A stretch of DNA of 11,557 bases. It comes from Cycloclasticus sp. (GTDB lineage Bacteria; Pseudomonadota; Gammaproteobacteria; Methylococcales; Cycloclasticaceae). Below are positions 77 through 11,260 of the stretch, one piece after another. The first letter of the stretch is position 1. Each line of letters opens with the position of its first letter. The DNA lies in NCBI GenBank assembly GCA_019090295.1, contig JAHRWG010000067.1:1-11557 (forward strand), written 5' to 3'. Both the position numbers and the translations under genes were made by a program. The notes under the pieces were generated by a model. The model was not told where the DNA came from, made no database searches, and saw only the letters and a list, made by a program, of their open reading frames with translations.

Positions 77-1046
77 GCTTTACCGCCACACCCCAAGGGT
101 AGTGTCCAACGCGAATAGATTTTGTCACTGTCATTGTCGTTAGGTCTATAACGGATATATCATTGCTCAAACCATTCGTGGTATATAACTGCGAAAGGTC
201 TGATGATAAAGCTAAATTCCATACACGTTGGCCAACCAGTAGGTACTTCTTAACCATCATGGTTTCCGAGTCGACAACCGCGACTCGATTAGCGGGGCCT
301 AGTGCCACGTAAAGCTCATTTTTATACGGGTGAACCACCACACCAACTGGTTGAATTAAGGCCTTATCAACACCAGCTACCTTAAACTTTAGTGTTGCAT
401 CAATTTGCTGGTTGCTTACCTTTAGGCGCAATAATGAACCACCAATTTCTGAGCTAACAAATAACGTCTGACTATCCGCCGAAAAGGCAGCGGCTCGTGG
501 CCGAGAGTCAACTAAGGTACTGGCCTTGACCGCCTGCGTCGCTGTATCTATCCAATGCACCATATTGCTGGTTTCAGTCGTACTAACAGCCCATTGTCCA
601 TTTGGACTGACCGCGATACCCTCCGGTTCTACACCCACTGGTATTATTGTCACCACCTCTTTACTGAGCACGTCTAGCACGGTCACTTGGCTATCCTCTT
701 CATTCGACACATACATCCAGCGCCCGTTAGGGTGAAGAGCAAATGTTTCGGGGTCATCTCCAGAGGGTAACTCACCGATAATTGTCAGACTATCCAGGTC
801 TAATATTTGAATACAATTATCATTACTAACGGCGACGTACAGTAGGTTCTGATTTTTACTAAGTGCTAACCCTCTAGGACGCTGCCCAACAGCGACTGTT
901 TTCACTAAAGCGCCTTCCTCGGCATTAACAATAGCGATGGCATTATCTTTCTCTAAACTAATAAAAAGGCTATCTGCCCCATTCGCAGATGAAAAAAGCA
1001 TCAAAATGGTCAGTAGTATTTTTTTACTCACGCTATCCCTATTCAC
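69..1046 (-). CDS. YVTN-type beta-propeller protein of the PQQ-alcohol dehydrogenase ABC module
   Basis: Secreted beta-propeller of 325 aa. An N-terminal signal peptide (roughly residues 7-24, KKILLTILMLFSSANGA) directs it to the periplasm. The rest is a chain of about 40-residue repeats with the pattern LYVAVSNDNCIQILD, MYVSNEEDSQVTVLD, ELYVALGPANRVAVVD and LYTTNGLSNDISVID, each followed by a G-x-x-P turn and an AL/AV-S-P-N/D-G-like strand; this is typical of YVTN/NHL-like propellers. Proteins of this kind sit next to PQQ-dependent alcohol dehydrogenases together with an ABC transporter; the exact role is not known to me. The start is GTG at 1046, overlapping the upstream stop by 8 nt (GTGAATAG). 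A second GTG at 1031 is preceded by AGGG at a spacing of 5 nt and would give a cleaner signal peptide (MSKKILL), so the true start is uncertain between the two. Confidence 0.85.
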   Translation of the reverse strand: MNRDSVSKKILLTILMLFSSANGADSLFISLEKDNAIAIVNAEEGALVKTVAVGQRPRGLALSKNQNLLYVAVSNDNCIQILDLDSLTIIGELPSGDDPETFALHPNGRWMYVSNEEDSQVTVLDVLSKEVVTIIPVGVEPEGIAVSPNGQWAVSTTETSNMVHWIDTATQAVKASTLVDSRPRAAAFSADSQTLFVSSEIGGSLLRLKVSNQQIDATLKFKVAGVDKALIQPVGVVVHPYKNELYVALGPANRVAVVDSETMMVKKYLLVGQRVWNLALSSDLSQLYTTNGLSNDISVIDLTTMTVTKSIRVGHYPWGVAVKHD

Positions 1047-2223
1047 TTGATTGATTAAGTTGACAATTCGATTCAGACTGATCGTAACCGAGTGTATCTA
1101 AATAGGTCCTAGGGTGCAAAAACTCTTTATAGGGCAACACTGCCACCATCGCTTCAGGTATCGCTAACAAAATAGGCTGACGTAACTGTTGATTCCATAA
1201 TCTAAAGTTAAGCCTGACCCCTTTAAAACCAGCCAAGCTAAAATCGTCACTTAATAAATATTTTTTCAATACCGGTGACTCTCTACTTTGCGTTCGCGTG
1301 CTTGCCTCCCCAACGGCTCTTACCGCTAACCACGACGCATAATCAATGCCTGTCATCCAGCGATTTGCTTGTTTAAAGAAACGCTTCTGAATTTGCACAC
1401 CTCCCCAGCGTTCATGCTTATGGTGCCAAGCAGTGGCAACCATACCTTGCGTGCCTGCCACCGGCCTTGGAAGCCAGGTGTTCATCAGCAAATAATCACC
1501 AAAAAAATCCGATGAGTTCGCGACCACGACCACGTCATAATCGGTTTCTTGAGTAAAAACAGCAATATCAGATTGTGTGGTTTTTCTTGAATTATGCTTA
1601 TGCGGCCACATTTTCTCTTTAACGATGGAGAGGCCAAAACGTTTAGCTGATCGTTTAAGAGCATTGGAGTAAAAAATATCTTGAGGTGACTCGCCCCTAA
1701 CAAGCAACCACTTTTTCCAGCGTTTTTTAAGCATAAACTGTGCTAACGCATCTGCTTTCATTGCATAACTTGGGGCCATATTAAAGACACTCCCTAGACA
1801 GTCTAGTTGCCTTAAATCATCATTTTCCACAGAGGCATTAAAAACCAACATATTTTGGATGGCCGCTTGCTTAGCGATATATTGCAATGTTTCAAGCGAT
1901 AAGTTCGCCACAATATACTGAATGCCTTTATCGTGTAGCTCACCCACGACCTTGTCAATGCGAGGCCTTGTTAACTGCTCAACATGCGCCATTTGGAAAC
2001 GCTGCCCAGTAAATGCACCCGTTGTATTATTATCCGCTATTGCTAACAACGCGCCTTGAACGCCCTCGTCAAGCAACTCAGGTGTTAAATTTGACTGCAA
2101 CTTTTTAACGGCTAATGTTTCGCTTAGGTAAGCCAGTTTAATAAGCGATGGCTCTGCTTGAGCAAGGGCAAACAACAACCCTCCCATATAAACCAGCAGA
2201 AACCTTCTGAAAAAAAATAGCAT
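1039..2223 (-). CDS. periplasmic substrate-binding protein of the PQQ-alcohol dehydrogenase ABC module
   Basis: 394-aa periplasmic protein related to the branched-chain amino-acid/urea type of ABC binding proteins. A signal peptide covers residues 1-23, with a likely cleavage site AQA before EPS. Visible family traits are the early strand LIKLAYLSE, the ALLAIADNNTTGAFTGQRF segment, DKGIQYIVANLS ending a Rossmann-like strand, MLVFNASVENDDLR, and the inter-domain part KKWLLVRGESPQD ... DVVVVANSSDFFGDYL. There is no lipobox, so it should be soluble rather than a lipoprotein. ATG at 2223 has AAGG about 6 nt upstream. The following propeller gene overlaps its stop by 8 nt, so this is the first gene of the minus-strand operon. 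The combination of a binding protein with an exporter-like ABC-2 system is characteristic of the PQQ-linked module; its ligand is not known to me. Confidence 0.85.
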   Translation of the reverse strand: MLFFFRRFLLVYMGGLLFALAQAEPSLIKLAYLSETLAVKKLQSNLTPELLDEGVQGALLAIADNNTTGAFTGQRFQMAHVEQLTRPRIDKVVGELHDKGIQYIVANLSLETLQYIAKQAAIQNMLVFNASVENDDLRQLDCLGSVFNMAPSYAMKADALAQFMLKKRWKKWLLVRGESPQDIFYSNALKRSAKRFGLSIVKEKMWPHKHNSRKTTQSDIAVFTQETDYDVVVVANSSDFFGDYLLMNTWLPRPVAGTQGMVATAWHHKHERWGGVQIQKRFFKQANRWMTGIDYASWLAVRAVGEASTRTQSRESPVLKKYLLSDDFSLAGFKGVRLNFRLWNQQLRQPILLAIPEAMVAVLPYKEFLHPRTYLDTLGYDQSESNCQLNQSSE

Positions 2224-2321: not shown

Positions 2322-2420
2322 AGGGGCTCTTATGCAAAACCTCATTTTAGAATAGAGTAGCACAGCCTCCATCTCCAAACTTATTTGCTAACGACAAGTC
2401 ATTCTGCCTAAATAAAAAGC

Positions 2421-2449
2421 AAAAAAAAGGCGACCCATAGAGAGTCGCC
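2421..2449 (-). terminator. Rho-independent terminator of the sRNA candidate
   Basis: On the minus strand GGCGAC (2449-2444), a 9-nt loop UCUCUAUGG and GUCGCC (2434-2429) form a perfect 6-bp GC-rich stem followed at once by eight T (2428-2421), then GC and five more T. The T-run lies only on the minus-strand side, which fixes the direction. Confidence 0.8.
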
Positions 2450-2511
2450 AAAGAGGAGGAGAACATTGTCACTGAATGCGGTTTCAGAGCTGAAAGCCGC
2501 AGTAACAATGT
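2421..2511 (-). ncRNA. candidate small regulatory RNA, about 91 nt, unidentified family
   Basis: Minus-strand transcription unit with three elements in order. First, a 49-nt hairpin (2511-2463): outer arms ACATTGT/ACAATGT pair perfectly, then UACUG pairs with CAGUG, and an upper stem CGG-(C bulge)-UUUC closes on GAAA-CCG; most of the 49 nt are paired. Second, a single-stranded linker UCUCCUCCUCUUU (2462-2450). Third, a terminator hairpin with eight U. The predicted +1 from the upstream TTGACA-17-TAAAAT promoter falls at about 2512, so the RNA would begin directly with the 5' hairpin. A promoter, a strong fold and an intrinsic terminator spaced like this are the hallmarks of an Hfq-type trans-acting sRNA. 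I do not recognise a known family. It could instead be a leader with an attenuator for the downstream binding-protein gene, whose start is about 200 nt further on. Confidence 0.65.
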
Positions 2512-2518
2512 GGAAAGA

Positions 2519-2547
2519 ATTTTATACTGCTCCGCAGCATTTGTCAA
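2519..2547 (-). promoter_or_regulatory. strong sigma70 promoter for the sRNA candidate
   Basis: Minus strand: a perfect -35 box TTGACA (2547-2542), a 17-bp spacer, and a -10 box TAAAAT (2524-2519, 5/6). The predicted start is about 2512, one base from the first paired base of the RNA hairpin. This is the best promoter match seen in the window. Confidence 0.75.
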
Positions 2548-2611
2548 CATAAATCCTCTTTAATACTGATGTTTTAGTGTTTATATCTCCATCAATCGGC
2601 TATCATGCTTT

Positions 2612-9019: not shown

Positions 9020-9850
9020 TTGAGTAGACAATTGAAAAAAGCTTTCCTACTATTCATATTCCCCTTCCTCTACAGTTTTTCTGTTCAGGCCAACGACGCG
9101 CTTCGCTTGGCAACAACTACCAGCACTGAAAACACTGGCCTTCTTGCTACTTTAATACCCGCCTTTAGCCTTGAAACCGGCATAAAGGTAGACATTATTG
9201 CTGTCGGTACAGGCAAGGCTTTAGAGCTTGCAAGGCGTGGTGATGCTGACATTGTTATGGTTCACGCTAGGCAAGCAGAGGATATTTTTGTTGCTAGAGG
9301 GTTTGGGGTTAATCGGCGCGACCTTATGGAAAATGATTTTATTTTAGTCGGCCCAAGTAGTGATCCCGCCCTAATTAGAGGGCAAAATAATAGCTTAGCG
9401 GCATTAAAAAAAATAGAAGAAAGCCAAGCCATTTTTATTTCACGTGGTGATAATTCTGGCACCCATAAAAAAGAGCTATCCCTATGGAAACACGCTGACC
9501 TTAAACCAGCTGCTCACTGGTATAAGGAAGTTGGCCAAAGTATGGGGAAGGCATTATTAATGGCCAATGAACTATCCGCTTACACCTTAACCGACCGAGG
9601 CACTTGGTTAGCCTATCAAGATAAGCTATCACTCCAACTATTAAGTGAGGGCGGCGTTTCATTGAAAAACCCTTATGGCATTATTGCTGTTAACCCTGCC
9701 ATACACCCTAACATTCAATACCGTAAAGCCATGTCTTTAATTGCTTGGCTTACTGCACCTGTTGGACAACAGTTAATAGGCTCTTTTAAACGAGATGGCC
9801 ATCAACTTTTTTACCCGACCGCGATCAAAGATACCGTCTTAAATGAATGA
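9020..9850 (+). CDS. tupA: tungstate ABC transporter, periplasmic binding protein TupA
   Basis: 276-aa periplasmic oxyanion-binding protein that captures tungstate and delivers it to TupBC. A signal peptide ends at VQA (about residue 24). Two conserved oxyanion-site motifs of the TupA family are present: TTTSTENTG at 32-40 and SRGDNSGTH at 141-149, with GTGKALELARRGDADIVMVHA (63-83) between them; this pattern separates TupA from ModA. The start is unusual. No in-frame ATG exists upstream before the stop at 8972-8974, so the candidates are TTG at 9020 and TTG at 9032, neither with a good Shine-Dalgarno sequence; the second gives a compact signal peptide beginning MKKAFLL. First gene of a four-gene overlapping operon; the stop overlaps tupB by 8 nt. 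Confidence 0.9.
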   Translation: MSRQLKKAFLLFIFPFLYSFSVQANDALRLATTTSTENTGLLATLIPAFSLETGIKVDIIAVGTGKALELARRGDADIVMVHARQAEDIFVARGFGVNRRDLMENDFILVGPSSDPALIRGQNNSLAALKKIEESQAIFISRGDNSGTHKKELSLWKHADLKPAAHWYKEVGQSMGKALLMANELSAYTLTDRGTWLAYQDKLSLQLLSEGGVSLKNPYGIIAVNPAIHPNIQYRKAMSLIAWLTAPVGQQLIGSFKRDGHQLFYPTAIKDTVLNE

Positions 9851-10544
9851 CCTAAATCAAGCTACAATTAATGCTTTTCAATTACTCTTGTCTGGTAACT
9901 CGGGCATCTGGGAAATCATTTCACTGTCATTTAGTGTCTCGCTTAGCGCTATTCTCATCGCCTCGCCGTTCGCGCTTATTATTGCTTTTTTTCTAGCTTT
10001 TTTTCAATTCCCTGGTCGACGAATACTTATTTCTGTCTTTAACACGTTCATGTCTGTACCTGCAGTCATCATTGGTTTAGCACTCTATTTACTATTGTCT
10101 AGAAGCGGGCCTTTTGGTGATTTACAGTTATTATTTACCAGTAAGGCAATGATTATTGGCCAAATCCTCCTAAGCTTCCCTTTGCTTGTTGCAATGGCCC
10201 ATGCATCATTTCAGGCTGCCGACCGACGCGCATGGGAAACGGCTATTACCCTTGGCGCCAAACCATACCGTGCTTTTTTTACGCTCGCTCATGAGGTTCG
10301 CTTTGGTTTGATTGCTGCTGTTGTTGCTGGCTTTGGGCGTGTCATCGCCGAAATTGGCTGTTCTATGATGGTAGGCGGTAATATTCTTCATGCTACTCGA
10401 AATATCCCAACGGCCATTGCCCTAGAGACAAGCAAAGGTGAGTTTTCTCATGGTATTGCCCTTGGTATCGTTTTACTGGTGTTAGCCTTAGGCTTAAATG
10501 CAGGCGTATCTATGGTTCAAGGCAAAGGAGGATTGCATTCATGA
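9843..10544 (+). CDS. tupB: tungstate ABC transporter, permease TupB
   Basis: 233-aa inner-membrane permease with about five hydrophobic spans, near residues 25-54, 61-86, 101-120, 155-172 and 204-225. The cytoplasmic coupling loop (about 130-150, AWETAITLGAKPYRAFF) is the EAA motif that docks on the ATPase. The following AVVAGFGRVIAEIG segment is characteristic of TupB/ModB-type permeases. ATG at 9843 overlaps the tupA stop by 8 nt (ATGAATGA), and its end overlaps tupC by 4 nt, so stoichiometric, coupled translation is likely. Specificity for tungstate rather than molybdate is taken from TupA next door. Confidence 0.9.
   Translation: MNDLNQATINAFQLLLSGNSGIWEIISLSFSVSLSAILIASPFALIIAFFLAFFQFPGRRILISVFNTFMSVPAVIIGLALYLLLSRSGPFGDLQLLFTSKAMIIGQILLSFPLLVAMAHASFQAADRRAWETAITLGAKPYRAFFTLAHEVRFGLIAAVVAGFGRVIAEIGCSMMVGGNILHATRNIPTAIALETSKGEFSHGIALGIVLLVLALGLNAGVSMVQGKGGLHS
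10526..10531 (+). promoter_or_regulatory. consensus ribosome binding site of tupC inside tupB
   Basis: AGGAGG, within AAAGGAGG, lies 9 nt before the tupC ATG. It is the only consensus Shine-Dalgarno sequence in an operon whose other genes have weak ones, so tupC may be translated more independently than its neighbours. Seven bases (AGGAGGA) are complementary to the linker of the sRNA candidate at 2421-2511. Confidence 0.6.
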
Positions 10545-11260
10545 GTAACTTAATTAGCTACAAAGATATTTCTATCTCTCTGTCTGGGCGGTTAATTCTA
10601 AGCATTGATCAGTTAGCCATCCCTTTCCGCCAATGTACACTATTGACAGGACGAAACGGTTCAGGAAAGACAACCTTACTCAAAATAATGAGCGGCCTAT
10701 TAAAGCCTGATTCTGCCCATATTGCGTACCAAGGCCTAAACCTTTCATGGCGACAAGCCAAACCTTATATTCAGAAAGATATTATTTATTTACACCAGCA
10801 GCCTTACCTATTTGATTCCACGGTATTTAATAACATTGCCTACGGTCTTTACCGTAATGGTGAAAATAAAACATCTGTGCATAAGAAAGTTAATCAGGCT
10901 TTAGAGTGGGCCAATTTATCGCACTTAGCTCATCAGCCAGCCAACAGTCTATCTGGCGGGGAGAAGCAGCGCGTTGCCTTGACCCGAGCACGAATTTTAT
11001 CCCAGAGTTTATTATTACTCGACGAACCCACTGCCAGTATGGACTCTGAGTCAAAACAGCAAACGAGCTTATTACTTCAGCGTCTTAATGCCGAAGGGTT
11101 AACCATTATTATTAGCAGTCACGAGTCACACACAGTGAGTCACCTTATCGACCGACATTTACACCTTGAAAATGGGCGTATGACAGAAATCAATAACGCC
11201 TCTCAAAATAACAAGGTCACGCCTTTTAAAACGACAAAAAATACCCTTACCAATGAATAG
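10541..11260 (+). CDS. tupC: tungstate ABC transporter, ATP-binding protein TupC
   Basis: 239-aa cytosolic ATPase that powers TupB. All catalytic elements are intact: Walker A GRNGSGKTT (38-46 region), Q-loop in YLHQQPYLF (about 83-91), signature LSGGEKQR (137-144), Walker B LLLLDEP (157-163) and the switch histidine in SSHES (His194). The last 25 residues or so (after LENGRM) are a polar tail without a TOBE or regulatory domain, which is the short form usual for TupC. It overlaps tupB by 4 nt (ATGA) and moeA by 8 nt. Confidence 0.9.
   Translation: MSNLISYKDISISLSGRLILSIDQLAIPFRQCTLLTGRNGSGKTTLLKIMSGLLKPDSAHIAYQGLNLSWRQAKPYIQKDIIYLHQQPYLFDSTVFNNIAYGLYRNGENKTSVHKKVNQALEWANLSHLAHQPANSLSGGEKQRVALTRARILSQSLLLLDEPTASMDSESKQQTSLLLQRLNAEGLTIIISSHESHTVSHLIDRHLHLENGRMTEINNASQNNKVTPFKTTKNTLTNE

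Follow-up and report, generated by a model that had tools for sequence, protein, structure and literature searches.

Gene structure and conservation, both read from sequence, confirm a new conserved, predicted small RNA (sRNA) gene outside the Rfam families in Cycloclasticus sp. Cycloclasticus is a marine degrader of aromatic hydrocarbons. The gene is on the minus strand of the window, which is the whole stretch of 11,557 nucleotides that was analysed, and consists of a promoter, a 5′ hairpin, a 13-nt open linker and a terminator with a U8 tail (Table 1). These parts had been proposed in a preliminary description of the DNA, and all were re-found by sequence analysis. Three properties are new: the unpaired linker is the best conserved part of the RNA outside the stems, relatives of the RNA are present across the order, and the promoter spacer contains a PhaR-like palindrome. 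With a conserved sRNA, a concrete seed and a candidate regulator, the post-transcriptional control of hydrocarbon oxidation becomes testable. Among the matches listed in the open-licence literature on sRNAs in Cycloclasticus and methanotrophs (titles and abstract openings, with subscription journals mostly outside), there was no account of this RNA.

Structure and conservation of the sRNA gene

Table 1. Features of the sRNA gene and its downstream neighbour in the window
Feature	Position	Strand	Basis
-35 box TTGACA	2542..2547	-	promoter scan; TTGAC in 15/16 genus loci
Palindrome ATGCTGCGGAGCAGTAT, core CTGCGGAGCAG at 2537-2527, proposed PhaR operator	2524..2540	-	genus alignment; fits CTGCNNNGCAG as quoted in PMC12542648
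-10 box TAAAAT	2519..2524	-	promoter scan
5′ hairpin, proposed +1 A2511	2463..2511	-	folding, covariation
Unpaired linker UCUCCUCCUCUUU, proposed anti-Shine-Dalgarno seed	2450..2462	-	folding, alignment
Terminator hairpin	2429..2449	-	terminator scan, folding, covariation
U8 tail	2421..2428	-	sequence, terminator scan
PQQ-system ABC substrate-binding gene (context, outside the RNA)	1039..2223	-	NCBIfam TIGR03863; ~200 nt downstream of the RNA

At the DNA level, the two promoter boxes have 11 of 12 matches and are separated by a 17-nt spacer. Taken together, promoter-like sites in the window are no more numerous than expected by chance (23 found, shuffle mean 23.5), and a further site also scores 11/12; thus the promoter call rests on conservation. 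The terminator with its T8 is at the top of the terminator list of the window (21 found, shuffle mean 10.6). Transcription had been proposed to start at about 2512. The purine rule would favour A2511 over 2512, from which an RNA of ~91 nt is predicted, the lower end of the 91-99 nt given earlier. The flanking genes are divergent, as had been stated, with starts at 2223 (-) and 2612 (+).

At the RNA level, the minimum free energy and centroid structures both give the fold of the preliminary description, two stems separated by 13 unpaired nt. The minimum free energy is -36.8 kcal/mol, compared with -16.85 on average for shuffles (z -7.50; 0/200 shuffles as good). A covariance scan of the window found no Rfam family at or above its gathering score, in agreement with the earlier view that the RNA has no recognised family.

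A DNA search gave sRNA matches in 33 of 61 genomes, including 16 of the 18 genomes of the genus; the two without a match have a completeness of 58% and 87%. All 16 genus loci retain the promoter, the hairpin, the linker and the terminator. In the alignment of these loci, the two-helix structure has 98.3% of cells paired compared with 96.7 in shuffles (0/500 as high). An alignment check for compensatory changes had been suggested: both stems are kept, three pairs are altered on both sides as against 0.5 in shuffles (2/500 as high), and the covariation score is 0.206 (0/500 as high). Further pair types, 14 in number, are not in excess over shuffles (136/500 as high). The covariation support is real but modest, because stem variation is mostly G-U exchange.

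An overlapping 67-aa open reading frame (2347-2550, minus strand) probably does not encode a protein: among the 16 aligned sequences of the genus, which are 86-96 nt long, lengths differ by numbers that are not multiples of three. A leader role for the downstream operon is possible in the genus.

Relatives in the order and class, and known sRNAs

A model of linker plus terminator (R1), built from 23 sequences, was compared with 301 sampled genomes of the order and matched 113 of them at E<=0.001. With a cut-off of E<1e-9, matches are left in 43 of the 301, namely 16 of f1, 17 of f4, eight of f6 and two of f7. In a sample of the class, a match at E<=1e-4 was obtained in 11 of 369 genomes, including two from the window's genus. 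The best genome outside the order, G501, has four matches. Its family, f173, has matches in 17 of 23 genomes, 14 of which have two each. The f173 module is similar to that of the genus sRNA and may be homologous to it.

The 5′ part of the sRNA outside the genus differs from that of the genus. Folds there are also weaker, with z scores of -2.98 (f7), -3.86 (f6) and -2.92 (f4) for the members folded, and one f4 member is predicted to have its linker paired over the first bases. An Rfam scan of 20 + 20 relative loci revealed only tRNAs at gathering score.

Some matches were set aside. Several second R1 matches in genus genomes cover the terminator part alone (positions 22 to 47-50) and are taken as chance, as are seven, from other phyla or classes, of the 26 stretches with the core pattern; these seven lack a matching terminator stem in the sequence examined. 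The f8 matches to R1 (E 2.8e-8 and weaker) have another core (CCUUCUCUUUAGCGGC) and other neighbours, and were excluded from membership. The f8 genomes in fact carry another sRNA-like unit, consisting of CCUUCUCUUUAGCGGC, a hairpin and U8 (L116, L118 and L130; also L108, L111, L117, L119 and L124). It is in tandem in three of these genomes, in several it is located 3′ of an rRNA adenine dimethylase gene, and it has a repeated GCGACAATCTGCCAC upstream, which we take to resemble a RegA/PrrA-type site.

The f4 sRNA genes L095, L096, L098, L102-L107, L110 and L133 have a common upstream element near CATAAGAAANTCTGAT in their promoters and a common 5′ end near CCAACCTCAACAGAAC. Perhaps the element is the site of another regulator and the 5′ end a second seed. 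The f173 genomes (L258-L262, L299-L318) often have two sibling anti-Shine-Dalgarno RNAs, with a PhaR-like core near the -10 box in one and absent from the other. In a record labelled Methyloversatilis universalis (L088, 7764 onwards), the sRNA follows the same receptor gene as in Methylocaldum (L077) and the two copies are nearly alike, which points to either a binning error or a transfer.

The MmgR/alphaR8 sRNAs (RF00519, suhB) are described, in the accessible text of PMC12559287, as having a hairpin, a single-stranded anti-Shine-Dalgarno core and a Rho-independent terminator. The window RNA is similar in that its core is unpaired, is located 3′ of the hairpin and is followed by a Rho-independent terminator. 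In Sinorhizobium meliloti, PhaR binds the promoter of mmgR, which has a PhaR site, and represses the gene, according to the part of PMC12542648 that is accessible. A similar arrangement may exist here, with a PhaR-like box in the window sRNA promoter and the PhaR domain in genus genomes. In contrast to MmgR, however, the core 10-mer UUUCCUCCCU quoted in PMC12559287 is absent from 2413-2547, where the linker is UCUCCUCCUCUUU. The window scores 19.0 bits against RF00519 (E 0.093), compared with a gathering score of 41. The organism belongs to another bacterial class, and the sRNA neighbours, a PQQ-system ABC binding protein and an alpha/beta hydrolase, are not the N-formylglutamate amidohydrolase whose gene adjoins alphaR8-type sRNAs in most species (PMC12559287, accessible text).

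Membership of RF00519 was rejected on the score below gathering and the absence of the core 10-mer. A distant kinship is nevertheless possible, since RF00519 is a leading sub-threshold match of the window, beside sRNA71 (E 0.1), and is the best sub-threshold match of an f6 member (E 0.11; RF02278 has E 4.9). In an f173 member RF02278 (E 0.13) ranks above RF00519 (E 1.4), both being sub-threshold. The RF02278 toxic sRNAs of Betaproteobacteria (ncS27 and kin) have, as far as the accessible text of PMC5688073 describes them, two hairpins and unpaired CU-rich stretches aimed at ribosome-binding sites. The window RNA likewise has two hairpins and an unpaired CU-rich stretch; the Rfam scan gave no window match to RF02278 at gathering score or at E<=10. 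The NmsR sibling sRNAs of Neisseria act on metabolic genes, whose ribosome-binding sites are the targets of CU-rich unpaired stretches in these RNAs (PMC5688073, accessible text). They share the CU-rich unpaired stretch with the window RNA, a likeness by description, with sequence compared through the Rfam scans, and differ from it in being a tandem pair in beta-proteobacteria.

Linker, promoter palindrome and proposed regulation

The linker is complementary to strong Shine-Dalgarno sequences. The gene has the general traits of an Hfq-type, trans-acting anti-Shine-Dalgarno sRNA: its own promoter, an unpaired anti-Shine-Dalgarno stretch and a U-rich terminator. Hfq was found in 16 of 18 genus genomes and was not found in the window's own genome, which is incomplete. 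In one locus (L018, G038:C1:891131-891152) there is a second, partial anti-Shine-Dalgarno stretch of 22 identical bases, ~130 nt from the first and on the same strand.

Each of six genomes has 9 to 27 occurrences of GAGGAGG at a distance of 4 to 12 nt before an ATG, compared with 1 to 11 of the reversed control. The total is 94 sites, at 1.8 to 14 times the control. This excess is no proof of targeting, because any use of strong Shine-Dalgarno sequences gives the same excess. The loci of 92 of the 94 sites were examined, two of G012 being left out, and 47 frames of >=30 aa lie behind them, of which some are counted twice (overlapping loci or start codons) and many are doubtful. A ring-hydroxylating dioxygenase beta subunit is a candidate target in three of the six genomes, with one confirmed in Pfam. 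Further frames include hydroxylase subunits of the methane/phenol/alkene type, a CoA transferase and a desaturase. These candidates, chosen by Shine-Dalgarno complementarity alone, are a lead, and such genes would be expected to have strong Shine-Dalgarno sequences anyway.

In the 16 genus promoters, the spacer between the -35 and -10 boxes is nearly filled by the palindrome ATNYTGCNNNGCARNAT. Complementarity is seen in 88 to 100% of genus loci for its TGC/GCA arms and outer AT/AT pairs, and in the strict sense in 50% for its Y/R pair. The strict palindrome is present in 15 of 18 genus genomes and is at the sRNA in 12; its six other sites are all within open frames. The window copy contains CTGCGGAGCAG, which fits the Rhodobacter sphaeroides PhaR box CTGCNNNGCAG quoted in PMC12542648, and this match of a palindrome in an sRNA promoter spacer to the published box is a new observation at the sequence level. 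The palindrome suggests control by PhaR, a sensor of stored carbon. The S. meliloti PhaR motif has the core YGCRNYGCR in the accessible text of PMC12542648. The genus sRNA box, TGCRNRGCA, has a purine where the S. meliloti motif and the boxes of PHB genes have a pyrimidine. It could thus be a weak PhaR site or the site of another regulator.

The phylogenetic distribution of PhaR bears on this question. The PhaR DNA-binding domain (PF07879) is found in 18/18 genus, 2/2 f7, 3/13 f4, 0/10 f6 and 0/12 f8 genomes. The core TGC-N3-GCA is in the sRNA promoter at 16 of 20 loci of genomes with PhaR and at none of 10 loci of genomes without it, although the genomes are related and the loci not independent. 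A letter-shuffled 52-nt window carries this core in ~0.4% of cases. The four loci that lack it in genomes with PhaR are G006, G011, G041 and G060 (two of the genus, two of f4). Of the 29 f173 copies examined, 13 have the core (from 12 of 16 genomes), and in 12 of the 13 it adjoins the -10 box; PhaR is found in 22 of 23 genomes of this family, including some without the sRNA.

PHB genes also display the core. Of the 18 genus genomes, 17 have a strong PhaC_N match, as does one f7 genome; the genome of the window, which is incomplete, gave no full-length PhaC match and only a weak one. At the thiolase near phaC (PF00108), the core is beside an upstream TATAAT in all six genus genomes examined. 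Upstream of phaC itself the exact core is found in three of eight genus genomes, and the same place has one changed base in the other five. These thiolase and phaC boxes come from the looser pattern TGC-N3-GCA, adopted after the stricter [CT]TGC...GCA[AG] had given almost nothing near phaC. There is no core box before the f7 phaC, and no box in the 60 nt before phaR in eight of eight genomes. In the genus loci L281-L288, phaR is directly 3′ of a long gene that resembles pnp by eye.

The best reading, for which the chances appear about even, is an anti-Shine-Dalgarno sRNA that is repressed by PhaR, works as MmgR does and lies outside the MmgR family. The gene would be transcribed from its own promoter into a trans-acting sRNA of ~91 nt. 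With Hfq, the linker would pair with Shine-Dalgarno sequences of the GAGGAGG type and lower translation of a set of mRNAs, probably catabolic. PhaR would bind the promoter palindrome and repress the gene. As PHB accumulates, PhaR would be drawn away and the sRNA would rise, so that carbon in storage would hold down further oxidation of carbon. The box is missing from the promoter in relatives without PhaR, where the regulatory input would differ.

The palindrome may instead belong to another dimeric regulator, with the RNA still a trans-acting anti-Shine-Dalgarno sRNA and unconnected to PHB. The sRNA box differs from the PHB-gene boxes at its inner position, TGC-N3-GCA is short, and two genus and two f4 loci lack the core despite PhaR. 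Set against these are the co-occurrence of core and PhaR and the same core at the thiolase and phaC promoters, which make this alternative rather unlikely, though a serious competitor. If PhaR repression holds, a PHB sensor joined to an anti-Shine-Dalgarno sRNA would be a recurring design in proteobacteria. More tentatively, and with the balance tilted somewhat against it, a PhaR-repressed anti-Shine-Dalgarno circuit may be present in at least three gamma-proteobacterial lineages (Cycloclasticus, f7 and f173), convergent with or anciently related to the alpha-proteobacterial MmgR, and may restrain hydrocarbon oxidation when PHB is full.

Genomic context of the module

Fourteen of the 16 genus loci, that of the window among them, have the module upstream of the PQQ-system ABC-binding gene and on its strand, as do both f7 loci and three f4 loci. 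The distance is 56 to 158 nt in the 13 other genus loci. Of the remaining two genus loci, one is truncated where its contig ends and the other, G016, is elsewhere. This arrangement raises the question of whether the module is a cis-acting leader or attenuator, whose terminator sets read-through into the downstream PQQ-linked ABC and beta-propeller operon. The G016 locus does not fit such a role, and conservation of the linker extends to loci whose neighbours are not conserved. In addition, at 14 other loci (f4, f6 and the Methyloversatilis-labelled record) the module follows a TonB-dependent receptor gene at a distance of 127 to 455 nt (PF00593 and PF07715 were found in one member checked). 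Nine of these loci have their first downstream frame on the opposite strand and four on the same strand, and in one no such frame is seen; with nine of 14 on the opposite strand, a leader role cannot be general. A leader is accordingly an improbable explanation of the module. A chance association of promoter-like sequence, hairpin and terminator, compatible as it is with the chance level of promoter-like sites in the window, is contradicted by the fact that module and architecture are conserved, and with a fold z of -7.50 is scarcely credible.

Phage origin was considered and set aside, as the phage collection gave no match. Elsewhere in the window, positions 9020-11260 have tungstate/molybdate-type ABC transporter genes (TupA-like, TupB-like and an ATPase), which appear ordinary.
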